From Bdellovibrio svalbardensis (GTDB lineage: Bacteria > Bdellovibrionota > Bdellovibrionia > Bdellovibrionales > Bdellovibrionaceae): a DNA stretch of 64,000 bases. Positions 3,552 through 37,417 of this stretch are shown here, in pieces. Positions within the stretch are counted from its first letter, which is position 1. The number at the start of each line of letters is the position of its first letter. Location: the NCBI RefSeq assembly GCF_029531655.1, contig NZ_JANRMI010000003.1, positions 62,001 through 126,000 of the forward strand. Reading direction: 5' to 3'. The notes under the pieces are model-generated. The model saw only the letters and a program-made list of their open reading frames with translations. It did no database searches and was not told the DNA's origin. Both the position numbers and the translations under genes were made by a program.

Positions 3552-4150
3552 TCTTTAATCCAATTCTCAAAGATATAACGTTCGACTTCTGCCGCGCCTT
3601 CTTTCTTCGTTGCCGAAGTCGCAAACACCGCGCTCAGTCCCGTTACTTTTTTAATTTTTGCAATCGCTTGAAGTTTGGCACTGTGAGAAAGCTTGTCAGC
3701 TTTAGCCAAAACAACCACGATCGGAAACCCTTCACGCTCAGAAAAGCGTCGCATGATTTCTTCGTCTTCAGTCCATGAACGGCGAATATCCATAACCAGG
3801 ATCAAACCGCGCAAATTTTCCCGCGAGGTCAGATAAGTTTCGATCATTTGATGCCACTCACGCTGTTCATCACCACTGCGAGCCGCGAAACCATAACCCG
3901 GCATATCGGTCAGCACATAGGAGTCTTCCATATTAAAGAAATTCAGAAGACGGGTTTTACCCGGCGTCGAACTGACTTTAGCGATGATTCGTTTTGCGAG
4001 TCCGTTGATGAACGAACTTTTTCCGGCGTTGGATCGACCCGCGATCGCCACTTCGGCCATGTTATGAACAGGATAATCTTTGGCCAGGACGGCACTTTTA
4101 ATGAACTGAATCGTTTTTGGCATAACAGAGGATACCAAAGCCTGAGCCAA
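3548..4150 (-). CDS. engB: ribosome-biogenesis GTPase EngB/YsxC
   Basis: A small essential-type GTPase that assists 50S subunit assembly. G1 is GRSNAGKSSFING, G3 is DMPGYGFA and G4 is AKADKLS, spaced as in the family. The 200 residues fit EngB. The annotated start gives MAQALVSSVMPKTIQF; a start at the internal Met10 is possible and would be nearer the length of many homologues. It is the first gene of the operon running to kdsD. The 180 nt upstream separate it from a gene on the opposite strand. Confidence 0.93.
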
Positions 4151-4233
4151 TTCTCAATTCTCAGAAGAAAGTCCTTAGACTGATAATAGGGCGAGTCGAA
4201 AGTCCCCCAAGTCCGTTTAAATCCATCTGAGCG

Positions 4234-4249
4234 TGGCAGAGCCCTTGTA
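4234..4249 (+). promoter_or_regulatory. possible sigma-54 (-24/-12) promoter
   Basis: TGGCAGA-GCCC-TTGTA matches the TGGCACG-N4-TTGCA pattern with the correct GG to G spacing, but the -12 element has GT instead of GC. It lies about 80 nt upstream of a gene for a sigma-54-dependent activator, as would be expected for autoregulation. One mismatch is at a normally conserved base, so this is only a candidate. Confidence 0.3.
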
Positions 4250-4331
4250 ATAGCCATTCCCGAAAGCCAACCACTCCGGACTCACCGAAGTGCAGACAGG
4301 TTTGAACACTTTTTAAGCAGGAGATTTCCTC

Positions 4332-5570
4332 ATGACCCCAACGACACAAGCATTTCTTAAAACTTTTGGCGATAATGCGAAGACTCTTTCAGTCAGCGAC
4401 TTCGCCACCCTCGGCAAGGATGTAAACTGCCAAATTCAGCTCGATGGCGAAGATATTGCCGAACGCCATTGCCGTCTCGAACGCAAAGAAGCGGGCTTCC
4501 TGATCCGCGATATGCGCACTTCCTTTGGCACGTTCGTTAATGACGCCAAAATCGTGGAAGCTCTTCTTCAGGAAGGCGATATCATTCGCATCGGTTCCCA
4601 GGAGCTTCTTTTTACTCTGGAAAAAGAGCAGCAATCTTCATTTCCGTTGAGAAGCCGCAATGAAGTTTGGCACGAAGAATTGCAAGTACTAGGCAACGTT
4701 GCCAAAACGGACTTCCCCGTTTTAATTCTGGGTCCCTCAGGCACAGGCAAAGATGTCATTGCATCTGCACTTCATGAAAATAGCTTACGAAAAAATGGTC
4801 CTTTTATGAGCGTCAACTGCAGTGCTCTCAGCGAAACCTTGATTGAAAGCGAACTGTTCGGTCACATCAAAGGCAGCTTTACTGGCGCGATCAACGATCG
4901 CAAAGGCGCTTTCGAGTCTGCTCGCGGTGGAACCCTGTTCCTGGATGAAATCGGCGACCTTTCCTACAGTCTTCAAGCGAAGCTTTTGCGCGCTCTTGAG
5001 AACGGTGAAATTCGACCTGTAGGCGCGGATCGCAATGTAAAAACTGACGTGCGTATCATTGCGGCGACTCATCAAAACTTGAGTGAGAAAATTCGCGAAG
5101 GAGCCTTCCGATCCGATCTGTATTTCCGTTTGAATGTCGTCAACGTCACTCCTCCCGCCCTGGTTTTGCGCATGGAGGATTTCGATGAGCTTCTTTATAG
5201 TTTTGCCAAGAAAATGAAAGTGCGTTTCTCATTCAATGCGATCTCGCGAATGAAAAAACACCCTTGGCCGGGCAATATTCGTGAACTTAAAAATCTGGTG
5301 ACTCGTGCTGCGGCTCTTTATCCACGTATTCAGATTGAAGATTATCATATCGAAAAACTGCTGGATAAATCTTTACTCAGCCATGCCGAAAGCACACCGG
5401 CGAATAATATTCCTGTGATCAAAGAGATTGAGAAGCAGATGATTATCAAGCGCCTTGCCGTGAATAAGGGCAACCAGCGCCGCACGGCCTTGGATTTGGG
5501 TATGCCGAAAAGCACGCTCCACGATCGCTTGAAATACTACAATATCGACCTGGAAAACTTTAAGGCTTAA
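4332..5570 (+). CDS. FHA-domain sigma-54-dependent transcriptional activator
   Basis: A 412-residue enhancer-binding protein. Residues ~20-95 form a forkhead-associated domain in place of a receiver domain, so the input is probably a phosphothreonine protein rather than His-Asp phosphotransfer. The AAA+ domain has Walker A GPSGTGK (134-140), Walker B TLFLDE (201-206) and the sigma-54 contact loop GSFTGA (181-186), a variant of the usual GAFTGA. A Fis-type helix-turn-helix closes the protein (~370-410). The SD sequence AGGAG precedes the ATG. The 3' end overlaps the convergent FliL-like gene by 11 nt. FHA-type activators of this kind are known from myxobacteria and Bdellovibrio. Target genes cannot be told from the sequence. 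Confidence 0.9.
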   Translation: MTPTTQAFLKTFGDNAKTLSVSDFATLGKDVNCQIQLDGEDIAERHCRLERKEAGFLIRDMRTSFGTFVNDAKIVEALLQEGDIIRIGSQELLFTLEKEQQSSFPLRSRNEVWHEELQVLGNVAKTDFPVLILGPSGTGKDVIASALHENSLRKNGPFMSVNCSALSETLIESELFGHIKGSFTGAINDRKGAFESARGGTLFLDEIGDLSYSLQAKLLRALENGEIRPVGADRNVKTDVRIIAATHQNLSEKIREGAFRSDLYFRLNVVNVTPPALVLRMEDFDELLYSFAKKMKVRFSFNAISRMKKHPWPGNIRELKNLVTRAAALYPRIQIEDYHIEKLLDKSLLSHAESTPANNIPVIKEIEKQMIIKRLAVNKGNQRRTALDLGMPKSTLHDRLKYYNIDLENFKA

Positions 5571-8076: not shown

Positions 8077-10710
8077 CTAGTGCGCTTCGTCCCAATTGTT
8101 CCCAACAGCGTAATTCACTTTTAGCGGAACCTTCAAAGTCGCAACGGACTCCATGATCCTGACTAATTCGGGAATGTGCTTATTCAAGTTGTCTTCGGTG
8201 TCTTCAAAGATCAATTCATCATGCACTTGTAAAAGCATGCGAACTGGAACCTTTTCAAAAACTTCGATCATCGCTTTCTTTACCAAATCACTCGCTGTTC
8301 CTTGGATCGGAGCATTGATCGCGGCACGTTCGCCGAATTTTTTAAGCATCACATTCTTCGACTGAAGTTCATCGATATAGCGGCGACGTCCAAACAAGGT
8401 TTCAACATAGCCCTGTTCATGCGCCAGCTTGATCGTGTTGTCGATATAATCACGAACGTTTTTAAATCTGGTGAAATAACGATCGATGATATCTTTGGCT
8501 TCGCCCCTTGGGATCCCCAAGTTTTCTGCCAAACCGAAGGCACCCTGCCCGTAAGCAATACCGAAGTTCACCGCCTTTGCGGCACGACGGTGCTCTGACG
8601 TAACGTCTTTCAAAGACAAACCAAATATCTCTGCCGCAGTCGCCGCATGGATGTCGAGATCCTCAGCGAAGGCCTTACACAAATTAGGATCTTCCGAAAT
8701 ATGCGCCAAAATTCTTAGCTCAATTTGCGAGTAGTCGACGGAAAGCAGCTTCATGCGCGGATGTGCGATGAAAGCCTTTCGGACTCTTTGCCCACGCTCC
8801 GTGCGGACTGGAATATTCTGCAAGTTCGGATTGGTGCTGGAAAGACGACCCGTCGTTGTCATGGCCTGGTTAAAGCTCGTGTGTAAGCGATCATCCTTCG
8901 GGCTGATCAAAGCCGGAAGAGCGTCCACATAAGTCGACTTCAACTTCGAAAGCTCGCGCCATTTTAAAACCAGCTTTGCGATCGGATGGTCCAAGCTTTC
9001 TAAAACGTCCGTATCAGTGGAATAACCTGTTTTGGTTTTTTTACCGGTAGGCAGGCCCAACTTTTCAAATAGAATCACACCGAGCTGCTTCGGACTTCCA
9101 ACGTTGAAAGTCTCACCCGCTTCTGCGTGAACTTTCTTCTCGAGCTCTTGAATTTCCAAGCCCAGATCTTCGCTTTCTTTTTTCAACAACTCCGTATCAA
9201 TGCGAATCCCGTAGTTTTCCATCGTCAAAAGAACACGCGCCAGAGGCAATTCAAGTTCATGATAAACCTTATCGCCGTGGATCTCTTTAAGTTGCTTGTC
9301 GATGGTTTTTGCGAAGTGCAGGTGTGCATTGTATAGCTGAGAGGGAGTTGCCATGTCCGGCAAGGCTTCACCCATAAACTTTTGATACATTTTTGCAAAA
9401 TCCGTCGAATCCCCCGCCTTCAAGACATAGGCGCCAAGCATCGAATCCCAAGAGGCAATGGGAGTTTTCGCGCCGATCTTGTGCCAGAACTCTTTCAAAT
9501 CAAAACCATTCCATCGGATCTTGAAGGTGTCCGTCAGGATCCCTAAATTTTCATGATCCGAAATGGCGATCACTTCTTTTTCTGTTCCCACAAAAAACCC
9601 GCGCGAATCAGAGAAGCCCCACAAAGATTGATTCTCTGCCAGAACCTCCGTCAGCTCACGAGTCGACATTTTTTGCTCTGGATATTCCTGATTTGAATAT
9701 TGAGCGATCTCTGCCAAGGGGGCTGTCAGCGGGGTGCTGCTTGATTCAGCTTCTTTTACCTTGCCCGCATTTGATTTAGCCGGAGCCGCCGTGGAGGTCG
9801 AGGCATACCAATTTGCACCGGCGGCCGCTGGTGTCACTTCACCATCTGCTCCCAAAAGATTTTTCTCGAAGGTTTTAAAGTTCATTTCACGAAGGAACGC
9901 GCGCAATTCATCTTTTTTCCAGTCGCGAAGTTTATAGACTTCCATGTTGTGATCGACAGGGATATCCGTCGTGATGGTCACCAACTTTTTGGAAATCAGA
10001 CAATTCTCTTTTGAGGCGATTAGTTTTTCACGGATGCCCTTGGGCTCCACTTGATCGATTTTTTCGTAAATCTCTTCGATGTGCTGATACTGCTCAAGAA
10101 GCTTGATCGCGCCTTTTTCACCGATGCCTCGGACTCCCGGAATATTATCCGAGGTGTCGCCGATGATTGATAAGAAATCGATAAACTGGTCGGGACGCAC
10201 TCCCCATTTTTCAAAAGCCAGCTTGGCGTCATAGCGAACGTCTTTCATGGTGTCGTAGATCACCACATGATCTTCGATAAGCTGTGCAAAGTCTTTATCA
10301 CCGCTGACAATGACGACTTCCATACCCTGGCGACGGCCATACTTGGTCAAAGTTCCGATAATATCATCGGCTTCATAGTTTGGAACTTCCAGAGCGGGAA
10401 TGCCCAAAATGTCCGCGAGCTGTTTGATGTAAGGAATTTGCTTCCCCAGATCTTCCGGCATTTCCGTGCGATGGGCCTTATAATCCTGGTACATTTCTTT
10501 TCTGAATGAAGGCTCTTTACGGTCGTAGCAAAACACCATGTATTCAGGCTTTTCTTCCTTCATCAGCTTGGTGATCATGCTAAGAAAACCATAGATCGCA
10601 TTCACGGGAAGACCCGATGGAGATGTCAGAGGGCGAACGGCGTAAAACGCACGAAAGAACATCGAGCTGACGTCGATGAGATATAGCTTTTTCATTGTAG
10701 AATTGGTCAC
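8077..10710 (-). CDS. polA: DNA polymerase I
   Basis: An 877-residue family A polymerase for Okazaki-fragment processing and repair. An N-terminal 5'-3' exonuclease domain (LYLIDVSSMFFRAFYAV ... YEADDIIGTL ... GDTSDNIPG) is followed by a Pro/Ala/Ser linker (~290-330). The middle exonuclease-like domain looks degenerate (FSDSRGFF ... SWDSMLGAYVL). The polymerase domain has DYSQIELRILAH (motif A), RRAAKAVNFGIAYG (motif B) and QVHDEL (motif C). The GTG start at 10710 has GGGAG 5 nt upstream; the ATG five codons later is less well placed. The SD lies in a hairpin, described separately. Confidence 0.97.
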   Translation of the reverse strand: MTNSTMKKLYLIDVSSMFFRAFYAVRPLTSPSGLPVNAIYGFLSMITKLMKEEKPEYMVFCYDRKEPSFRKEMYQDYKAHRTEMPEDLGKQIPYIKQLADILGIPALEVPNYEADDIIGTLTKYGRRQGMEVVIVSGDKDFAQLIEDHVVIYDTMKDVRYDAKLAFEKWGVRPDQFIDFLSIIGDTSDNIPGVRGIGEKGAIKLLEQYQHIEEIYEKIDQVEPKGIREKLIASKENCLISKKLVTITTDIPVDHNMEVYKLRDWKKDELRAFLREMNFKTFEKNLLGADGEVTPAAAGANWYASTSTAAPAKSNAGKVKEAESSSTPLTAPLAEIAQYSNQEYPEQKMSTRELTEVLAENQSLWGFSDSRGFFVGTEKEVIAISDHENLGILTDTFKIRWNGFDLKEFWHKIGAKTPIASWDSMLGAYVLKAGDSTDFAKMYQKFMGEALPDMATPSQLYNAHLHFAKTIDKQLKEIHGDKVYHELELPLARVLLTMENYGIRIDTELLKKESEDLGLEIQELEKKVHAEAGETFNVGSPKQLGVILFEKLGLPTGKKTKTGYSTDTDVLESLDHPIAKLVLKWRELSKLKSTYVDALPALISPKDDRLHTSFNQAMTTTGRLSSTNPNLQNIPVRTERGQRVRKAFIAHPRMKLLSVDYSQIELRILAHISEDPNLCKAFAEDLDIHAATAAEIFGLSLKDVTSEHRRAAKAVNFGIAYGQGAFGLAENLGIPRGEAKDIIDRYFTRFKNVRDYIDNTIKLAHEQGYVETLFGRRRYIDELQSKNVMLKKFGERAAINAPIQGTASDLVKKAMIEVFEKVPVRMLLQVHDELIFEDTEDNLNKHIPELVRIMESVATLKVPLKVNYAVGNNWDEAH

Positions 10711-10715
10711 AGAGT

Positions 10716-10749
10716 CTCCCGGTTGCAGAAAATATCTCTACAACGGGAG
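10716..10749 (-). promoter_or_regulatory. leader hairpin sequestering the polA Shine-Dalgarno
   Basis: On the transcript strand CTCCCG-TTG pairs with CAA-C-CGGGAG: nine pairs with one bulged C and a 15-nt loop. The 3' arm contains the GGGAG that serves as polA SD, 5 nt before the GTG. Closing the stem would hide the ribosome-binding site. Confidence 0.55.
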
Positions 10750-10771
10750 CACATTAATGTCGATTATTCGA

Positions 10772-11107
10772 TTATTCTAGATCCGCTTTGACGCGTGAAA
10801 ATTCAATTTGCTCAAGGGCGTTTTTGTCCAGGGCAAGTTCTGAGGCCGGAGTGTATTTTACCTCGTCCGAGCACTCTTGGCATTGGCGGTACATGATTTC
10901 CAATTCACCCTTGATTTGAGCTTGCATAGAACCTTGCCCCTCTTCGAAAGCTTCGACATCTGTCAAAGAGCATTTCAACCGGCGGGCCATATCGGATTTA
11001 CTCCAGCCCAAACGAAGGCGGAGGGCACGAACGCTTTCTTTGTTCCACTCAAGAGAGTAGATCTCTGTGCTGCTTTCGTGTGTGTTCCCGGACATGTTCT
11101 CAGTCAT
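10772..11107 (-). CDS. small XRE-type helix-turn-helix protein
   Basis: The ATG at 11107 follows AGAGG by 5 nt and gives 111 residues (MTENMSGNTHE...). Residues ~22-60 (ESVRALRLRLGWSKSDMARR ... LTDVEAFEEG) fit a Cro/C1-type helix-turn-helix. Two cysteines in CQECSD and an acidic C-terminus follow. The gene ends 61 nt before the polA GTG on the same strand and may be co-transcribed with it. Its DNA target is unknown. Confidence 0.7.
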   Translation of the reverse strand: MTENMSGNTHESSTEIYSLEWNKESVRALRLRLGWSKSDMARRLKCSLTDVEAFEEGQGSMQAQIKGELEIMYRQCQECSDEVKYTPASELALDKNALEQIEFSRVKADLE

Positions 11108-11204
11108 ATAAACCTCTAGATTCACTAAACTAATGTGATCTGTTTAGAGTATGAATACTAGAAAGATTGTACCCGAAAATCACGCAATAATGCGCTGCTG
11201 TAGT

Positions 11205-11510
11205 CTATTGTTCTGGAAAAACAAAAACTAGGTCGTGCTCGCCGGCCAGATCTAATTTATCGCGAGCTTGGCGCTCAATAAAGGCTGGATCTTTGGCTTG
11301 TTTAAGTTGCCCTTGAAGGTCGCCAATGCCAGCGCGGGTCTGATTGATTTCATCTTGAATGTGAGCATAATCCCGATGAAGACCCCAAAGTCTCCAGAGA
11401 TTGCCATTAAGGACGATTGAAACACCGAATACCATAAGGCAGAGAACGGCAACTTTTCCTGGATGATTAAGAAATCTGCGAAGGCCTAAGGCAAACTGAG
11501 TGTATGACAT
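11205..11510 (-). CDS. ftsB: FtsB/DivIC-family cell-division protein
   Basis: 101 residues with a cytoplasmic N-terminus of ~18 residues, one membrane segment (~19-38) and a periplasmic coiled coil (~45-75). The family ending (DPAFIERQARDKLDLAGEHD) is followed by VFVFPEQ. FtsB/DivIC links FtsL and FtsQ in the divisome. The gene is directly downstream of eno, the same neighbour ftsB has in E. coli, which supports the call. A 9-bp hairpin lies in the 84-nt gap between them. Confidence 0.88.
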   Translation of the reverse strand: MSYTQFALGLRRFLNHPGKVAVLCLMVFGVSIVLNGNLWRLWGLHRDYAHIQDEINQTRAGIGDLQGQLKQAKDPAFIERQARDKLDLAGEHDLVFVFPEQ

Positions 11511-29567: not shown

Positions 29568-29610
29568 CTTCGACGACTCTGAAATCAGAGTGCATGGATG
29601 CAAGTCGAAG
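29568..29610 (+). promoter_or_regulatory. nested hairpin in the leader of the first clostripain-family gene
   Basis: Outer stem CTTCGAC/GTCGAAG encloses an inner stem ACTCTGA-AA-TCAGAGT. It ends 24 nt before the ATG and is missing from the leader of the downstream paralogue. Confidence 0.55.
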
Positions 29611-29633
29611 CGTGGACCTTCATGGAGGAAAAA

Positions 29634-30824
29634 ATGAACCACCACTTGTCGCGCGTTTTAGTATGTCTTCTTTTGTTGATCGGCACGTCGTATTCGCACG
29701 CTGCTGAAGAAATGAAAGAATGGAACTTTCTAGTTTACATTAATGGCGTTAATAACCTGGATAGCTTCGGTGCTCAGAATATCAATCAAATGGAAGAAGT
29801 CGGTTCTTCTGACAAAATGAATATCCTGGTGCAATGGGGTTCCGCTAAAAATCCCAACGTCACAAGACTTCTGGTCAAAAAAGACAGCGACAAGAAAAAT
29901 GTAACCTCACCCGTTGTGCAAAACCTTGGCGGTGCGGACATGGGCGACTGGAAAGAACTTGTTCGCTTCGTTGAATGGTCAAATCAAAACTACCCGGCAA
30001 AGCACTACTTCATCGTAGTTTGGGATCACGGCAGCGGTTGGCATATCGCGAAAGCTAACAACACCGGCACGCACATCCAGGATATCTCTTGGGATGATCG
30101 CACTGGCAACTATATGACGACAGAACAACTTGCTCAGGCTATGAGTGAATCTGCAAAGATCATCGGTCATAAAGTTGATATCTATGCATCGGACGCTTGC
30201 TTGATGGGAATGGTCGAAGTTGCCTCTGAAATGCAAACTGCAGTTCAGTACTATGTGGGTTCTCAGGATGTTGAGCCCGGTGCAGGCTGGCCGTACAATA
30301 CTTTCCTGAGCAAATGGTCTTCACAAATTGATTCACTCAGTGCGAAACAAGTCGCAACTTTACTTTCTAAAGACTACGCGGCTGCCTATAACGGTGGAAT
30401 CTATGGTAAAAGACCTGTCACTATGTCGGCCTACGATATGTCTTATATCTCAGCTTACGAACAAGCCTTCAAGAAAGTGGGCCAAGAGCTTAGCAACTTG
30501 AACGCGGCTGATATTGCAAAGGCCAACAGAGCGGCTTCGGCAACGAAGTACTTTACGAACTGGGACTACAGAGACTCTCTTGATTTCCTCACTCAACTTG
30601 AAAAAAATGGGGTGACGGCGGGTTCATTTGCAGATCTTCGCGCAGCTCAGAACAACTTCGTTATGTCGAACGATCAAACTCAAGACCAAAAAACTTGGGG
30701 TGTATCCGTTTGGCTTCCAACCAGCAGCAGTGACTACGACACTTACGCTCAACGCTATGAAGGTTTGAAGTTCCATCAAAATTCTGGATGGGGTTCATTC
30801 CTGAAAAGACTGATCAAGAAATAG
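29634..30824 (+). CDS. secreted clostripain-family (C11) cysteine peptidase
   Basis: Start at ATG 29634 with GGAGG 6 nt upstream. 396 residues with a signal peptide (~23 residues, ending SHAAE). The caspase-like fold shows a catalytic His in VVWDHGSGWH and a nucleophile Cys in ASDACLMGMVE, the family arrangement; clostripain cleaves after Arg. It is probably exported and may degrade prey protein. It is followed by a terminator and then by a paralogue (about 75-80% identical by eye), a recent tandem duplication. Confidence 0.92.
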   Translation: MNHHLSRVLVCLLLLIGTSYSHAAEEMKEWNFLVYINGVNNLDSFGAQNINQMEEVGSSDKMNILVQWGSAKNPNVTRLLVKKDSDKKNVTSPVVQNLGGADMGDWKELVRFVEWSNQNYPAKHYFIVVWDHGSGWHIAKANNTGTHIQDISWDDRTGNYMTTEQLAQAMSESAKIIGHKVDIYASDACLMGMVEVASEMQTAVQYYVGSQDVEPGAGWPYNTFLSKWSSQIDSLSAKQVATLLSKDYAAAYNGGIYGKRPVTMSAYDMSYISAYEQAFKKVGQELSNLNAADIAKANRAASATKYFTNWDYRDSLDFLTQLEKNGVTAGSFADLRAAQNNFVMSNDQTQDQKTWGVSVWLPTSSSDYDTYAQRYEGLKFHQNSGWGSFLKRLIKK

Positions 30825-30864
30825 AGTTTTTTGAACTTTGATTTCTTCAAATGTTTTCTGAATC

Positions 30865-30898
30865 AAAAAGCCTGGGAATAAAACCCCGGGCTTTTTTT
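30865..30898 (+). terminator. terminator of the first clostripain-family gene
   Basis: AAAGCCTGGG, a short loop and CCCGGGCTTT run into a T-tract (one G-T pair). A near-identical terminator follows the second copy. Confidence 0.9.
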
Positions 30899-30941
30899 AT
30901 GATGTCCTTGCACGACCATAGTCTAGTTATGAGCTCCCTCC

Positions 30942-30995
30942 CTAGTCTAGCTCCAGAATGGAGATAACCTAGCATCTGACACAAAATTCCGTGTC
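30942..30995 (+). repeat. duplicated leader element, copy 2
   Basis: Counterpart of 29512-29565. The end stem is GACAC-AAAATTCC-GTGTC. It ends 11 nt before the ATG at 31007. Confidence 0.75.
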
Positions 30996-31006
30996 ATGGA
31001 GTAAAA

Positions 31007-32197
31007 ATGAATCAGCTGTTGTCGCACGTTTTTGTATGTCTTCTTTTGCTTCTCAGCACGTCCTACTCGCATGCCGCTGAACCTGTGAAGGAATGGAACT
31101 TCCTGGTCTTCATCAATGGCGTTAACAATCTGGATAGTTACGGCCCTCTGAATATCAATCAAATGGAAGAAGTTGGGTCTTCAGAAAAAATGAATATTCT
31201 GGTGCAGTGGGGTTCTTATACAAATCCCAACGTCACAAGACTTCTGGTTAAAAAAGACAACGATAAAGCCAATGTCACCTCGCCTATCGTGCAAAACCTG
31301 GGCGGCGCCGACATGGGCGACTGGAAAGAACTCGTTCGTTTTGTAGAGTGGTCACAACAAAATTATCCAGCAAAACATTACTTCATTGTGGTTTGGGATC
31401 ATGGCAGCGGCTGGCATATTGTAAAGGCCAACAACAAGGGTGCACATATCCAGGATATCTCGCAGGATGACCGCACTGGAAATTTCATTACCACCGAACA
31501 ACTGGCACTAGCCATGAATGAGTCTGCCAAAATCATCGGCCACAAAGTGGATATCTATGCGTCCGATGCCTGCTCGATGGGGATGGTGGAAATTGCTTCT
31601 GAAATGCAAGAGGATGTTCAGTATTACATCGGCTCTCAAGATATTGAGCCCGGCGAAGGATGGCCGTACAGCACGTTCTTAACCAAATGGTCTTCGCAAG
31701 TGGAATCCCTCAGCGCAAAGCAAGTCGCAGTTCTTCTTTCGAAAGAATTCATGGCCGCCTACGATGGTGGAATTTATGGCAAAAAACCTGTGACGATGTC
31801 TGTTTATGACCTGTCACAAATTTCCAACTACGAGCAAGCTTTCAAACAAGTGGGCCAAGATTTAAGCCGTTTGAGCCCTGCTGATCTTGTAAAAGCAAAC
31901 AAAGCGGCTTCAGACACCAAGTACTTTTCAGTCTGGGACTACCGGGATTCTTTGGATTTCCTATTTCAATTGGAAAAAAATGGCATCACGGCTGCTTCCT
32001 TCGCGAAGCTTCGTGCTGCTCAAAACAACTTCGTTATCACCAATGACCAAACTCAAGATAACAACACCTGGGGTGTTTCAGTTTGGCTGCCCGTCGATAA
32101 TGACGACTACAGTGAACACGCTCAACGCTACGAAGGTCTGAAGTTTCAAAAAAATTCAGGCTGGGGCGTTTTCTTAAAACGTATGATTCTGAAGTAG
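31007..32197 (+). CDS. secreted clostripain-family (C11) cysteine peptidase, tandem paralogue
   Basis: 396 residues, colinear with the preceding gene without gaps. Signal peptide MNQLLSHVFVCLLLLLSTSY...; catalytic His in VVWDHGSGWH, Cys in ASDACSMGMVE (Leu to Ser after the Cys). Both catalytic residues are intact, so both copies are probably active. Differences concentrate in surface positions of the C-terminal half. SD TGGAG lies 6 nt before the ATG. Its own promoter seems likely, because a full terminator separates the two genes. Confidence 0.92.
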   Translation: MNQLLSHVFVCLLLLLSTSYSHAAEPVKEWNFLVFINGVNNLDSYGPLNINQMEEVGSSEKMNILVQWGSYTNPNVTRLLVKKDNDKANVTSPIVQNLGGADMGDWKELVRFVEWSQQNYPAKHYFIVVWDHGSGWHIVKANNKGAHIQDISQDDRTGNFITTEQLALAMNESAKIIGHKVDIYASDACSMGMVEIASEMQEDVQYYIGSQDIEPGEGWPYSTFLTKWSSQVESLSAKQVAVLLSKEFMAAYDGGIYGKKPVTMSVYDLSQISNYEQAFKQVGQDLSRLSPADLVKANKAASDTKYFSVWDYRDSLDFLFQLEKNGITAASFAKLRAAQNNFVITNDQTQDNNTWGVSVWLPVDNDDYSEHAQRYEGLKFQKNSGWGVFLKRMILK

Positions 32198-32267: not shown

Positions 32268-32399
32268 ATGTCTCTGCATCCCTACTTCATTGGCAAAAAA
32301 TTCTATTGAAGGAAATAAACTTTCCAAAAAAGTTAAATTAAAAATTAACTTTAATGAAATTTCATTTGACGTGGTTTTTCAATTTATAGGATTCGTTCC

Positions 32400-32468
32400 A
32401 TGCATCGCAAAGAATCACAGCTGGACCGGCTATTCTTAATCATCAGCTTCATTCCAATGGCCTGTTAG
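32400..32468 (+). CDS. possible 22-residue peptide ending in a lipobox-like Cys
   Basis: ATG with AGGA 8 nt upstream opens a short basic N-terminus (MHRKESQLDR), a hydrophobic run (LFLIISFIPMAC) and then a stop right after the Cys. It could be a truncated signal peptide of a lost lipoprotein, a leader peptide, or chance. Confidence 0.2.
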   Translation: MHRKESQLDRLFLIISFIPMAC

Positions 32469-32575
32469 TGACCTCCTATTAGCTATTCTGCTTCTCCAAA
32501 TCAATGGCAGATCTCCTCGAGATTTGTCCTAAAATCCATATTTAAAACCCATGCTATACCCTTAAAAAGAAACGG

Positions 32576-32589
32576 CACACCCGTAGCGG
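32576..32589. repeat. left arm of 14-bp inverted repeat around the HNH gene
   Basis: CACACCCGTAGCGG is the exact reverse complement of 33502-33515. The last bases run into the SD (GGAGG) of the HNH gene. Confidence 0.8.
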
Positions 32590-32598
32590 AGGTAGATC

Positions 32599-33516
32599 AT
32601 GGATATCAAATTGTTTTCAAACTCAGAACTCATGACTCGATTTGGAAAACTTGTCCAAACCGAAAGAAAGATCACTCATTTGGTTCTTGAGTGCATTGCC
32701 GAAATTGATACGCGGAAAATATATCTGGAAAGAGCCTACCCCAGCCTTTATGAATTCTTGGTAAACGAATTTGGTTATAGCCCCTCATCGGCTGTTCGCA
32801 GAATTGAATCCGCTCGACTTCTTCGAGATGTTCCAGAAATGTCCCAGAAAATAGAAGCCGGAGCCTTGAACCTTTCGCAGCTTTCAAAAGTTCAACAAGC
32901 GATTCGTACTGTTCAAAAGACCGAGGATCGCAAGATGGATGCTGCAGAAAAACGAGATCTTCTAAAAAAGATTGAATATACCACGCAAAACCAAACGGAA
33001 CTGATTCTGGCACAAGAGCTGTCGCTGCCTATATTTTCAGAGGAGCGCGAAAAAATTCATCGTAATGAATCCGTGACTTTGACCATCACATTTACAAAGG
33101 AACAAATGGCCTTGTTAGAGCAAGTCCAAGATATGATCGCGCATAGTGTTCCAGATAAGAAGTGGTCTGCGGTATTGAGTTATCTTGCTCAGAAAGAAGT
33201 TGAACGACGAACCCAAACTAAACGTAAAGAGGTGCAAAAATCTTTCTGCAGTCCCCCTAAAGAGGATCGCTCTTACATTAGAAAAACCATCCGCCCCAAT
33301 CTTCGAAAATCCATTTTGGGACAGGGAAAATGCTGTGAGTATCAAGATCCCCTGACAAAGAAAATCTGCGGCAGCACTCGCTTCTTGCAGATTGATCACA
33401 TCCAACCTGTCTGGGCTGGCGGCGACAACAGTCCTCAAAATTTAAAGGTGCTTTGCCAACAGCACAATAGTTTCAAATATGCGAAGGAGTCAGGACTACA
33501 CCCGCTACGGGTGTGA
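32599..33516 (+). CDS. HNH endonuclease
   Basis: 305 residues with GGAGG 7 nt before the ATG. The N-terminal ~150 residues are helical (LFSNSELMTRFGKLVQTERK ... YPSLYEFLVNEFGYSPSSAV RRIESARLL), of the type seen in DUF222-like HNH proteins. A Lys/Arg-rich linker (~210-235) precedes the C-terminal HNH domain, which has CCEYQD, a metal/catalytic LQIDHI, GGDNSPQNLKVLC and QQHN. The histidine and asparagine positions needed for a beta-beta-alpha-metal nuclease are present. The last ~35 codons and the 3' flank are repeated twice downstream as remnants. Confidence 0.85.
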   Translation: MDIKLFSNSELMTRFGKLVQTERKITHLVLECIAEIDTRKIYLERAYPSLYEFLVNEFGYSPSSAVRRIESARLLRDVPEMSQKIEAGALNLSQLSKVQQAIRTVQKTEDRKMDAAEKRDLLKKIEYTTQNQTELILAQELSLPIFSEEREKIHRNESVTLTITFTKEQMALLEQVQDMIAHSVPDKKWSAVLSYLAQKEVERRTQTKRKEVQKSFCSPPKEDRSYIRKTIRPNLRKSILGQGKCCEYQDPLTKKICGSTRFLQIDHIQPVWAGGDNSPQNLKVLCQQHNSFKYAKESGLHPLRV

Positions 33517-33595
33517 AGGTTCAGAATCAGAAAGTAGAAAACCCGCTGATTGGTAAGTCCGCGGGTTTCGTTAGTTTCTATAGTCAATTTTCTAG
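33412..33595 (+). repeat. HNH-tail repeat, parent copy
   Basis: 184 nt covering the last ~35 codons of the HNH gene and 79 nt of 3' flank, including an ACACCCG-CTA-CGGGTGT hairpin over the stop region and a second hairpin (ACCCGC ... GCGGGT). Repeated at 34607-34790 and 36540-36705. Confidence 0.9.
33502..33515. repeat. right arm of 14-bp inverted repeat around the HNH gene
   Basis: CCGCTACGGGTGTG covers the final codons and first bases of the stop and pairs perfectly with 32576-32589. Confidence 0.8.
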
Positions 33596-33607
33596 TTCTA
33601 TAAATCT

Positions 33608-33742
33608 CTAAATATTCGCTAAATAATCGCAAATGGCTTGTCCTAATTTTTGATCCACTCCATTAGACATATAAGTTGCCTTCGAAAGATCGAGTTTTAG
33701 CACATCTCTCGTCAAGCCTGGCTCCAGGTCAGGATTACGCAT
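33608..33742 (-). pseudogene. 44-codon gene remnant
   Basis: A frame opening MRNPDLEPGLTRDVLKLDLS and ending AICDYLANI-stop has coding-like composition and stays open a further ~11 codons upstream, but has no SD and is cut by a stop. It looks like the C-terminal end of a lost gene. The origin is not recognised. Confidence 0.35.
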
Positions 33743-33776
33743 AAAAATAGCCAGAGCTTTTCGGCCACTGGCTATT
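33741..33776 (-). terminator. terminator of the minus-strand gene at 33848
   Basis: On the minus strand AATAGCCAG, a 13-nt loop and CTGGCTATT are followed by TTTAT. It begins 72 nt after the stop of the gene at 33848-34348. Confidence 0.75.
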
Positions 33777-33847
33777 CAGTAAATTCTTAAAGACCACTCA
33801 GCTATGAATAAAGATTTTAAGCCGATATTTATTACGAAAATCAGGAG

Positions 33848-34348
33848 TTACATTGGATTAGGAAAGCTATCGAATTGACCAGATTTATACCATACTTTGA
33901 GGTAACAATTTTCCCCGTTAAACACATCAGCACAAATCTTTTTCATCTCAGAAAAATCACTTTGCTTAAGCGAGCCCAAGCTCTCGTGAACATTTCCCTC
34001 TGCTCCAATAGACCAAGCGTATGTTAAAGGAAAATTATTAAACATCAATGATCCATTTTTGAACTCTAGCTTACCAGAAGACATGCAAAGCTTACTGTCA
34101 TTAAATTCAGTCTTCATGACAGTTGCGTATATACACTTCACACTTCCTGCCCCCTGACCAAACGAAGTAAGAACGACTGGTTGCACTTCGCCCTTGTTAA
34201 CTTCGAAGTAAAGGCTTCCATCGCTTTCATAATTTAACTTGGAACTGGGTTTTCTCGCTTGCCCTTTATCCTTTGAGGATAACGAAATCCCCGCAAACGA
34301 ACTGAGAGATATAAAAAATATGACTGCTGCACTCGTGAAAAATTTCAT
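33848..34348 (-). CDS. small secreted protein of the accessory region
   Basis: 166 residues with a signal peptide (MKFFTSAAVIFFISLSSFA). The mature part is beta-rich, with four cysteines (KCIYA, KLCMSS, KICAD, ENCYLK), likely two disulfides. The DNA is A/T-richer than the core genes. It lies between the intact HNH gene and the first HNH remnant, on the opposite strand. No family recognised. Confidence 0.65.
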   Translation of the reverse strand: MKFFTSAAVIFFISLSSFAGISLSSKDKGQARKPSSKLNYESDGSLYFEVNKGEVQPVVLTSFGQGAGSVKCIYATVMKTEFNDSKLCMSSGKLEFKNGSLMFNNFPLTYAWSIGAEGNVHESLGSLKQSDFSEMKKICADVFNGENCYLKVWYKSGQFDSFPNPM

Positions 34349-34501
34349 AACATCCCCTTAAGATATAATGTTAAGAACTATCATAATGGACATACCTCAC
34401 CACTAGGTAGTCTAGAATTTTTTGAACCTATTGGACTCTTCAGTTGTTCATCAGAAAAAATATTTTTAATCCACGTCGTAATCAAAATACAGAAAACTCT
34501 C

Positions 34502-34601
34502 TACCATCACAGCATCGAGGCTCAGACATTTAGACACAGTGTGATTGTGACAAACACCGATCAGGCACAGATTAGAAAGCTGTGTGAGATAATCAAGATA
34601 G
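34502..34601 (+). repeat. 100-nt repeat of the accessory region, copy A
   Basis: Same length and about 80% identical to 37289-37388; a shortened version is at 36490-36540. In one frame it reads YHHSIEAQTFRHSVIVTNTD and continues without stop into the HNH tail. The function of the encoded segment is unknown. Confidence 0.75.
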
Positions 34602-34606
34602 CTGTT

Positions 34607-34790
34607 TGGGCTGGCGGCGACAACAGTCCTCAAAATTTAAAGGTGCTTTGCCAACAGCACAATAATTTCAAATACGCGAAGGAGTCAGGACTACACCCGC
34701 TACGGGTGTGAAGGTTCAGAATTCGAAAGCAGAAACCCCGCTGATTGGTAAGTCAGCGGGGTTCGTTAGTTTCTATAGTCAATTTTCTAG
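34607..34790 (+). pseudogene. HNH 3'-end remnant, copy 1
   Basis: 184 nt nearly identical to 33412-33595, still ending LHPLRV-stop, with the ACACCCG-CTA-CGGGTGT hairpin intact. The second hairpin is strengthened to CCCCGCTGA/TCAGCGGGG. The upstream HNH body is missing; the 100-nt repeat is joined in frame instead. It ends 3 nt from the stop of the convergent gene at 34794. Confidence 0.88.
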
Positions 34791-34793
34791 GGG

Positions 34794-35978
34794 TTACTGA
34801 ACGCCCTTGGAGGTCTCGCTTTTTCCTTTAGGGGCAGCCCCACAATTATCTAAATTAGAAAATTCAAGCTGCGCCGAGGTTATATAGAATTGCTCATTGT
34901 CTTTGTTCTTCGACACGTATGCGATTTCATCATCTGAAAGAAAAACTGGGTAGTACAAGTCAGTTCTCTTTTGCGATTTTAGAGGGATAAGTTTTTTGTT
35001 TTTCCGGTCGTACAAAAACAAACTCAAATTTGTCCCATCGTCTTTAGGAAGTCTAAACTGGTTAGTACCAATTTTATTGCCCCCATCGACATGAAATGCA
35101 AGAAAGCGCCCATTAGGACTGAAATCAATTTTTCCCACTAATGATGGGATCTCGGCTACGACCGCGCAAGTCGCAATAGAGTATACTTTGGTGCTTTGGC
35201 TTTGAGGATCATAAGTCGAAAATTCCGTTCCATCTTTGCTGAGCATTGGAAGTGCACTATTGATTCCCGTATTAGTGTTACACATTGGTTTGGCATCACC
35301 TAATGGAGTAAGCTTCTGATTTGATGGATTCCAAGTGTACTCTTTAAGCATGATGCTCTTTGAACCTTCATAGAGCATTCTATAGCGGGTTTCTTTGACG
35401 TTTTTAACAACACCAAGGGACTGATAATTTTCACTTACGGTGGCGTCGAAAGCCGTCAAATTATAGGCCTTTGGGTTACTCTTATCTTTGGTATAAAAGC
35501 TCATTCCACTCGCCAGATATGTTGCTTTCTGCGCTTTAAGTGCAGAAAGCGTCAATGTCGTTGGCTGCCAATTAAGTGTGTTTGGACGTCTTTTTTCGAC
35601 GATTTGAGTTGAGCCAGTATACCTGTACTCAATTTTTTCCAGCTGCTCTTCACTTATTGATTCTGGGGACTTTGGCGTTGCGTCTGCTCCCAAATAGACA
35701 ACATCCCCCGGGACGGCAAGTAATACTCCATCAGGCGAAGGGACCGGGTCAATTATACCGGCGACATTTGTTGATTGGCCCGTTTGAACATTCATAATCA
35801 TATTTTTGCCGGAGAGAGTAGCAAAACCGACTTCTTTTGTTTTTCCTGATGGTCTTAGAAAATAGCTGACGCCATCTGGAGCTAAGATCTTCTTTTCATG
35901 ACTGAAAGATGCTTCTGTAGAGCAATATTTTGTTTGTGCGAACGAACTAAAACTAAGAAAAATAACTGTTAATATCAT
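34794..35978 (-). CDS. exported beta-propeller-like protein
   Basis: 394 residues with a signal peptide (MILTVIFLSFSSFAQ). Repeats of the TolB/WD40-like type are visible: DPVPSPDGVLLAVPGD, LPMLSKDGTEFSTYD, KIDFSPNGRFLAFHVD, YPVFLSDDEIAYVSKN. It is probably a periplasmic propeller. Two or three cysteine pairs are possible. Its start overlaps the end of the gene at 35975 by 4 nt, so the two form an operon. Confidence 0.7.
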   Translation of the reverse strand: MILTVIFLSFSSFAQTKYCSTEASFSHEKKILAPDGVSYFLRPSGKTKEVGFATLSGKNMIMNVQTGQSTNVAGIIDPVPSPDGVLLAVPGDVVYLGADATPKSPESISEEQLEKIEYRYTGSTQIVEKRRPNTLNWQPTTLTLSALKAQKATYLASGMSFYTKDKSNPKAYNLTAFDATVSENYQSLGVVKNVKETRYRMLYEGSKSIMLKEYTWNPSNQKLTPLGDAKPMCNTNTGINSALPMLSKDGTEFSTYDPQSQSTKVYSIATCAVVAEIPSLVGKIDFSPNGRFLAFHVDGGNKIGTNQFRLPKDDGTNLSLFLYDRKNKKLIPLKSQKRTDLYYPVFLSDDEIAYVSKNKDNEQFYITSAQLEFSNLDNCGAAPKGKSETSKGVQ

Positions 35979-36415
35979 TTCAGATACATTCCTATCATTC
36001 GATCAAGTTCCTCTTTAGATTTATATCCTGGAGTTGTTGGACCGCTAAAACTTCCGTGCTTAATCAAAAGGTAGCTGGGATAATGTACACGTAAGCCTCG
36101 TTCAATGAGCTTGCTTGATTGAATCGTTTTTAAATATGTATCTGGCCACTGATGCTTAAATGCTACCTTTTGAGCTAAGCTGAAATCACAATTTGGATCG
36201 AGAACTACGATGAGCTTGATCTTATTGGATTTTGTAAACTGAATAGCTTCGTCGAGTCCTTTTATAGATAAAGGCATGTGTGGAGACCAGGTGAAGATCA
36301 TGACATTATCGACTTCACCAGATCTTAATGTAGACTCTAGATCGGCATTAGAAAAATATGAGCTGCCACTTGCCCAGCTCAAATGAAATGATAGAAGAAT
36401 CACTAAATATGACAT
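35975..36415 (-). CDS. exported thioredoxin-fold-like protein without CxxC
   Basis: 146 residues with a signal peptide (MSYLVILLSFHLSWASG). The order of elements (VDNVMIFTWSPHMPLS, IKLIVVLDPNCDF, HYPSYLLIKHGSFSG, SKEELDRMIGMYL) follows a thioredoxin fold, with YPSYLLI at the cis-Pro position. The usual CxxC site is replaced by SPHM, and only one Cys remains in the mature protein (DPNCDF). It is therefore not a normal disulfide oxidoreductase. Translationally coupled to the propeller gene. Confidence 0.6.
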   Translation of the reverse strand: MSYLVILLSFHLSWASGSSYFSNADLESTLRSGEVDNVMIFTWSPHMPLSIKGLDEAIQFTKSNKIKLIVVLDPNCDFSLAQKVAFKHQWPDTYLKTIQSSKLIERGLRVHYPSYLLIKHGSFSGPTTPGYKSKEELDRMIGMYLK

Positions 36416-36489
36416 CCTCTCATTCTATCAGTCTCTCTCTTTAGTTTCATAGCAGAATTGATTCTTCGATAGCTTCTGGACCTGACGGT

Positions 36490-36540
36490 GACAATTGAGG
36501 CTCAACCCCTGAGACGCGGTGTGGTTGTGACAAACACCGA
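36490..36540 (+). repeat. 100-nt repeat of the accessory region, truncated copy B
   Basis: Matches the middle part of copies A and C (GAGGCTCAACCCC ... TTGTGACAAACACCG) and then joins directly to the HNH tail at 36540, so it has lost about 50 nt at the junction side. Confidence 0.65.
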
Positions 36541-36705
36541 CAGTCCTCAAAACTTAAGGGTGCTTTGCTAACAGCACAATAATTTCAAATACGCGAAGGA
36601 GTCAGGACTACACCCGCTACGAGTGTGAAGGTTTAGAATCCGAAAGTAGAAACCCCGCTGATTGGTAAGTCAGCGGGGTTCGTTAGTTTCTGTAGTCGTT
36701 TTTTA
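36540..36705 (+). pseudogene. HNH 3'-end remnant, copy 2
   Basis: 166 nt related to 33430-33595, with more substitutions and frame damage (TGCTAACAG) and a broken first hairpin (CTACGAGTGT). The second hairpin, CCCCGCTGA/TCAGCGGGG, is intact. It lies 37 nt from the stop of the minus-strand gene at 36743. Confidence 0.85.
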
Positions 36706-36742
36706 GTGTTTTGATTGAAGCTGATTCTTAAAAAAGAAATGG

Positions 36743-37177
36743 CTATTGAATGCCCTTTTCATCCTTTGGGGTTTTGGATTTTTTGGGGCTCGGTATTTTC
36801 CCTGAATTATTTAAACCCACGGAAGTGGCACTATCGCTTTTGCAAACATAGAATGCGCCTATTTTTTCGCCTTTTCCTTCAGGGCATTTGCTGGCGGAAT
36901 CATGCAGCAGACAATCTGTCATAAGCATTCCCAAACCACCCATGCGGTCGCTGATTCGGGCATCACATCCATATTTTGTCTTCAAATCTCTGATCATTTG
37001 AATACACTCATTGTCTGATAAGTTCTCCAACATAACAGTAGTGACCTCTGAAACAACGTTGGGATCTAACTCTTTGCAAGCTTCTGCTTTGCAATCACAT
37101 CCATCAAGGGTGCATTTCAAATCTGCAAATGAGAATTGAATAAAAACAGTGATCAACAAGAAAATGACGACTCTCAT
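36743..37177 (-). CDS. small cysteine-rich secreted protein
   Basis: 144 residues with a signal peptide (MRVVIFLLITVFIQFSFA). The mature part has eight or more cysteines (LKCTLDGCDCKAEACKE, NECIQM, YGCDAR, DCLLH, SKCPEG, YVCKS), suggesting a disulfide-stabilised extracellular domain, and a Lys/Ser/Pro-rich tail. A/T-rich like the other genes of this region. No family is recognised. Confidence 0.65.
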   Translation of the reverse strand: MRVVIFLLITVFIQFSFADLKCTLDGCDCKAEACKELDPNVVSEVTTVMLENLSDNECIQMIRDLKTKYGCDARISDRMGGLGMLMTDCLLHDSASKCPEGKGEKIGAFYVCKSDSATSVGLNNSGKIPSPKKSKTPKDEKGIQ

Positions 37178-37288
37178 ACACCTTCCTTTTTTATAAATGT
37201 TACATCATACCGTAAACAGGCTCAAATTTTTCATCAAATCAAGACCTAGGCTCGAATCAATTAGAACACGATAGAAACAATGCCTCAT

Positions 37289-37388
37289 TACCATCACAGC
37301 ATTGAGGCTCAATCCTCGAGACACGGTGTGATTGTGACAAGTACCGTGCAGGCACAGATTAGAAAGCTGTGTGATGTAACCAAGATAG
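37289..37388 (+). repeat. 100-nt repeat of the accessory region, copy C
   Basis: Full-length copy not followed by an HNH tail. It contains the palindrome ATTGAG-G-CTCAAT and outer ATCACA/TGTGAT. An ATG at 37280 would give MPHYHHSIEAQSSRHGVIV in the same frame as copy A. Confidence 0.75.
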
Positions 37389-37417
37389 ATGGAGCCAACA
37401 CTTCACTTGTGGTTTTC

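Follow-up and report, generated by a model that had tools for sequence, protein, structure and literature searches.

Organization of the HNH locus

The locus described here lies in a 64-kb window (i.e. the whole stretch of DNA analysed, in whose coordinates positions are given) on contig C3 of the 3.9-Mb genome of Bdellovibrio svalbardensis (G000). An intact gene encoding a DUF222-HNH endonuclease is followed by two further copies of its 3' end (termed tails), by copies of a ~100-nt repeat unrelated to the tails (R100) and by four genes, S1 to S4, whose products have signal-peptide-like N-termini, as called by a crude in-house rule and inspection. The intact gene with two 3'-end copies and the opposite-strand secreted-protein genes between the remnants had both been described in an earlier note on this DNA, and both were borne out. 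The following features were assigned using open reading frame (ORF) calls, profile searches and repeat alignments.

32340-33596, plus strand: DUF222-HNH unit, consisting of a leader with a conserved upstream motif, the ORF, a 3' palindrome and a terminator (ORF call, Pfam, leader comparison)
32366-32379, plus strand: leader motif TTGACGTGGTTTTT (comparison of HNH leaders in the genus)
32576-32595, plus strand: copy of the palindrome at the ribosome-binding site, CACACCCGTAGCGGAGGTAG (repeat comparison)
32599-33516, plus strand: intact HNH endonuclease gene, 305 aa (ORF call, Pfam, residue alignment)
33407-33596, plus strand: tail 1, i.e. the intact gene's own 3' end, including a palindrome (33496-33516) and a terminator hairpin (repeat alignment, folding)
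33848-34348, minus strand: S1, 166 aa, signal-peptide-like N-terminus, no family match (ORF call, profile searches)
34502-34604, strand not assigned: R100 copy 1, with tail 2 following directly (repeat alignment)
34602-34790, plus strand: tail 2, last ~35 HNH codons, palindrome (34691-34711) and terminator hairpin (34734-34763) (alignment)
34794-35978, minus strand: S2, 394 aa, weak PD40/beta-propeller-like match, signal-peptide-like N-terminus (ORF call, Pfam)
35975-36415, minus strand: S3, 146 aa, overlapping S2, signal-peptide-like N-terminus (ORF call)
36494-36539, strand not assigned: R100 copy 2, shortened to 46 nt (repeat alignment)
36540-36707, plus strand: tail 3, last 29 HNH codons with an in-frame stop, palindrome (36608-36628) and terminator hairpin (36651-36680) (alignment)
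36743-37177, minus strand: S4, 144 aa, Cys-rich, signal-peptide-like N-terminus, no family match (ORF call, profile searches)
37289-37391, strand not assigned: R100 copy 3, at which the insert ends on the right; the stop of a BLUF gene is 26 bp away (repeat alignment)

The head gene is apparently intact. In its predicted product, the N-terminal DUF222 domain narrowly passed the Pfam gathering score (24.9 versus 24.4 bits), the C-terminal HNH domain scored 25.3 bits against a Pfam cut-off of 21.4 and the invariant catalytic residues D266, H267, N281 and H289 are all kept. Tails 2 and 3, by comparison, comprise 29-35 codons, are 5'-truncated and lack the catalytic DH motif. Tail 2 is 95% identical to the intact gene over 189 nt whilst tail 3 is 91% identical to the intact gene and 94% to tail 2, and tail matches within the genome had BLAST E-values of 1e-61 to 1e-82, far beyond chance. 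The coding part of the tails is 93-98% identical to this gene, as compared to ~74% for the HNH genes at other loci of the same genome.

The three tails stop at roughly one base, near TTTCTAG, beyond which their flanking sequences differ. A genome search confined the palindrome, CACCCG(CTA/TAG)CGG, to close HNH loci of B. svalbardensis; it is present in both tails and in a remnant at a second HNH locus (C1, see below), tail 3 and C1 each carrying one change. The terminator hairpin, CCCGCTGA..TCAGCGGG, folds into a 13-bp stem in tails 2 and 3, in which the change from the intact-gene version is paired. This hairpin occurs at four places in the genome, all at HNH loci (i.e. the array, C1 and C5). 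A genome-wide tail search ruled out that the tails are a common 3'-untranslated-region element, as the tail block and hairpin were confined to HNH loci.

Joints between R100 and the tails

Each tail had been described in the earlier note as the last ~35 codons plus flank, preceded by the 100-nt repeat, with a third repeat copy standing alone at 37289. This held for tail 2, with its ~35 codons and the copy at 34502-34604, and for R100 copy 3, which has no tail, but not for tail 3, in which 29 codons with a stop are preceded by just 46 nt of R100. The order of minus-strand cargo and then HNH remnant was found twice and not three times as had been counted; the third cargo is followed by R100 alone.

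Copies 1 and 3 of R100 are 85% identical. Copy 1 meets tail 2 at ~AAGATAG^CTGTTTGG (34604/34605, with an ambiguity of up to three bases), and the outer copy 3 ends at the same base and is then followed by the BLUF flank. Both interior joints consist of R100 plus tail, the left end of a tail only (i.e. the intact gene) and the right end of R100 only. Half-blocks at the ends with full blocks inside are the signature of tandem units of the form tail-cargo-R100, and the two interior joints appear to fit better with derivation from a single R100^tail junction. A tail-2-type joint seems to have given rise to tail 3 by a short-homology deletion, in which R100 is cut after ...ACACCG, the tail begins with ACAGTCC and 1-4 nt of common sequence are present at the deletion. 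An assembly error is an unlikely source of the array because the repeat copies differ by 5-19%.

Several candidate identities of R100 were rejected. An HNH leader remnant was discounted on a lack of similarity to the HNH leaders of this genome on either strand and of the leader motif (by inspection), and a known RNA on a negative search that gave a single sub-threshold match elsewhere. A protein-coding role was discarded as changes were mostly non-synonymous by eye, although the frame is open. Neither unusual folding nor an attC-like folded site was detected in R100 on either strand (z-scores of -0.7 to 1.1).

Cargo genes

No match above cut-off was obtained for S1 or S4 in Pfam, NCBIfam or PHROGs, and none was obtained in 148 relatives; one very weak PADLOC match of S4 is probably due to chance. 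The S3-S2 neighbour pair recurs in several distant relatives with no HNH gene nearby, and is thus a normal accessory operon. The three cargo regions had no detectable homology to one another. A 44-codon minus-strand ORF (33608-33742) between tail 1 and S1 resembles the 3' fragment of another gene.

Insertion site in related genomes

The island lies between the BLUF gene and a clostripain gene, and the site was compared across Bdellovibrio genomes, one per species. G005 is the closest genome at this locus; there, only 67 bp with a common terminator separate the BLUF and clostripain stops and the ~5-kb block of HNH gene and cargo is absent; the lineage-specific insert expected by the earlier note was hence supported by an empty site. 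G005 shows absence of the island and not a pristine ancestral site, because other relatives carry a VWA-like lipoprotein gene or other genes at this position. Far from being conserved in all relatives, the R100-tail block was absent from all other genomes of the order (141 searched), and one weak match in G010 is the end of an HNH gene itself. The R100-tail array is unique among ~66 HNH loci, a sample picked by best matches.

The clostripain (C11) gene is tandemly doubled beside the island (29598-32197) but is present as a single copy in six relatives and absent from the others. In another species, an independent HNH C-terminal fragment is located downstream of a BLUF gene (locus L111 in G020, 3691-4615) and adjoins a 214-aa gene that by eye resembles a flavin mononucleotide-binding regulator.

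HNH 3' ends or terminators next to cargo elsewhere in the genome

Among the other HNH genes of the genome, the two closest, with 74% DNA identity, are located at C1:932480 and C5:123681; in G005, neither locus is occupied. A remnant at C1 (C1:931137-931216), made up of ten HNH codons, palindrome and terminator, abuts the 3' end of a minus-strand lipoprotein gene carrying an HExxH motif, and an intact HNH gene follows. At C5, the terminator hairpin is found on both sides of a minus-strand putative metallopeptidase gene and an HNH gene, the remnant being the terminator alone with no palindrome. The cargo 3' end faces an HNH 3' end or terminator in all five cases (i.e. S1, S2/S3, S4, C1 and C5), although for S1 the facing end is that of the intact gene, 250 bp away. 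Variation of cargo with retention of tails, another expectation of the earlier note, was thus seen within the array and at C1, whereas C5 retains the terminator only.

Possible origins of the array

The explanation that we favour, giving it roughly even credence, is that the island is accessory and species-specific, that recombination at the HNH gene's 3' end stacked the cargo cassettes and that the tails were kept as terminators. We infer an order of events in which recombination at the 3' end of this gene would have formed the first R100^tail joint, and further units with other cargo would then have been stacked by homologous recombination through their common ends. The outcome would be three tandem units (i.e. 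HNH 3' end with palindrome and terminator, minus-strand secreted-protein gene(s), R100) behind the head gene. The tails may have been retained since the hairpin can stop transcription both ways, which would end the cargo transcripts. The locus connects a DUF222-HNH gene of a predatory bacterium with an accumulation of secreted-protein cassettes.

Several observations weigh against this explanation. Simple tandem duplication is insufficient because the three cargo regions are non-homologous, and an exchange or circle-integration step has to be assumed for the differing cargo. Divergence is unequal, at 91-95% identity for the tails versus 81-85% for R100, and one duplication history would need selection or conversion. 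The copies at C1 and C5 are short, with C5 having the terminator only. No other tail array was found at the protein level among the ~66 HNH loci, the DNA-level remnants at C1 and C5 aside. Finally, G005 lacks the lipoprotein gene that other relatives have at the site, which has its own history of turnover.

It is unlikely that complete HNH units, each with a divergently oriented cargo gene, inserted in series and that all but the first were then reduced to tails by deletion of leader and body. Cargo and HNH genes are divergent neighbours at C1 and C5, making an ancestral cargo-HNH unit plausible, and tail 3 is an example of deletions happening here. However, two R100 copies stop at one base, in one case before a tail and in the other before chromosomal sequence, which would require coincident deletions, and R100 resembles no HNH leader of this genome and has no leader motif by inspection. 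The high identity of the tail coding parts to this gene, as compared to that between separate loci, and the one common R100 joint indicate that the tails are probably not the separately inserted, decayed HNH genes that had been proposed.

Ranking next, and also doubtful, is neutral local rearrangement, in which the HNH end and R100 were duplicated among resident genes by slippage or illegitimate joining, with no role of HNH and no cargo brought by it. The absence of the entire 5-kb block, HNH gene and cargo together, from G005 argues against this, as does the presence at C1 and C5, too, of an HNH 3' end or terminator next to cargo. It would nevertheless fit with duplication-prone surroundings, the clostripain gene being tandemly doubled only here, with the occurrence of S2-S3 elsewhere without HNH and with the lack of relatives of S1 and S4 that could show transfer. 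A composite transposon was ruled out as there is only one complete HNH gene and the tails are 5'-truncated, leaving no two complete flanking elements.

Comparison with known systems

No paper on DUF222-HNH genes in Bdellovibrio was found in the literature collection searched, and we know of no description of how the widespread DUF222-HNH repeats spread. Free-standing (intergenic) HNH homing endonucleases are similar in that the intergenic HNH site is empty in a relative (three loci in G005) and in that sister species carry different HNH genes at one and the same site. They differ from the genes described here in the DUF222 N-terminal domain and the attached cargo of the latter, for which a target allele and its cleavage are putative.

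In integron cassette arrays, likewise, a short block recurs between non-homologous genes and is present as a half-block at either end. In the island, by contrast, R100 shows no unusual structure and the head position is taken by an HNH gene. An IntI-type tyrosine integrase was not among the five island genes, for which Pfam, NCBIfam and PHROGs returned only DUF222/HNH and unknowns; the rest of the genome was not searched.

Orphan CdiA-CT/Rhs tip arrays (PMC3150448) resemble the island in having an intact gene and then tandem 5'-truncated C-terminal copies with other genes between them. Unlike these arrays, the island has no large surface protein or toxin tip, and its tails lack the catalytic DH, with a stop in tail 3. 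Its cargo also differs from that of contact-dependent growth inhibition and Rhs systems, consisting of opposite-strand secreted proteins with no family match and no recognisable immunity genes.

REP13E12/HNH/DUF222 is listed among the repeats of Mycobacterium (PMC10589994). The REP13E12 (13E12) genes of Mycobacterium are DUF222-HNH genes in several dispersed copies per genome that are treated as a repetitive element, and the Bdellovibrio genes share the features of this family (i.e. DUF222 above the gathering score, HNH with catalytic residues and multi-copy dispersal). Unlike REP13E12, the island has a head gene and then 5'-truncated copies of it, between which the cargo genes are located. 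The search for palindromes and the leader motif covered Bdellovibrio, in which both were observed.

Leader motifs, palindromes and dispersal across the genus

DUF222-HNH matches were present in 19 of the 24 genus genomes, with up to 21 per genome, counts that are inflated by split matches; G005, G006 and G023 are without any. Pairs of HNH genes at unrelated sites in G020 and G007 are 85-93% identical over the leader and most of the ORF, with the copied units starting 15-17 bp before the motif TTGACGNGNTTTTC and finishing near the stop. As judged from these copies, the HNH genes are a dispersing multi-copy family in Bdellovibrio genomes. A search of viral contigs returned no relative of the HNH alignment. 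Sister species carry strongly diverged HNH genes at the sites of the G020 and G007 pairs. Orthologous sites in several species are all HNH-occupied (L237/L245/L263/L272 and L242/L252/L257/L270/L275), some of the genes having no mutual DNA similarity, which would fit either site turnover or fast divergence in place. Cargo orientation was not constant across the genus, the upstream neighbour being on the same strand at 36 loci and on the opposite strand at 29 (mechanical gene call).

The motif TTGACGNGNTTTTC (≤1 mismatch) was located 197-275 bp upstream of the HNH gene at 24 of 66 loci, and no downstream control contained it; its distance from the HNH start is clade-fixed and mostly ~200 or 232 bp. 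No conserved RNA was found in the HNH leader, in which the distal motif and a promoter-like proximal part are conserved and the stretch between them is not. Part of the gene is often repeated in the leader as a short, inverted copy: 16 of 64 HNH loci exceeded the 99th percentile of mismatched controls as compared to 0.64 expected, the control being a pool of several species and not a formal test. These copies are often palindromic, with the partner in the gene linker or 3' end (e.g. L241, L251, L253, L266 and L270); the pair in the window is 32576-32595 and 33496-33516. The genus-wide leader motif and palindromes yield precise predictions that can be tested at the bench.

These inverted repeats, together with the intact catalytic residues and the restriction of the palindrome to close HNH loci, where both tails and the C1 remnant keep it, are compatible with nuclease-driven cassette capture, in which the HNH protein would cut its own 3'-end palindrome and repair from DNA with HNH ends would insert cargo. 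This is improbable: the cutting site is putative, the R100^tail joint is not at the palindrome, the C5 remnant has no palindrome and the palindromes could serve in autoregulation instead. More speculative still, and held with very little confidence, is a generalisation to the genus, whereby DUF222-HNH genes would drive integrase-free cassette capture, the nuclease recognising the leader/3'-end palindrome and its cuts stacking secreted-protein cassettes behind the gene.

Some HNH genes have long flanking inverted repeats that hold terminator-like hairpins, namely L136 and L135 in G010 and L256 in G020 (205 bp at 94%, 101 bp at 83% and 69 bp at 87% identity, respectively). At L134 in G008 (8734-11235), an HNH gene is located between gspF- and gspG-like genes of a type II secretion operon.

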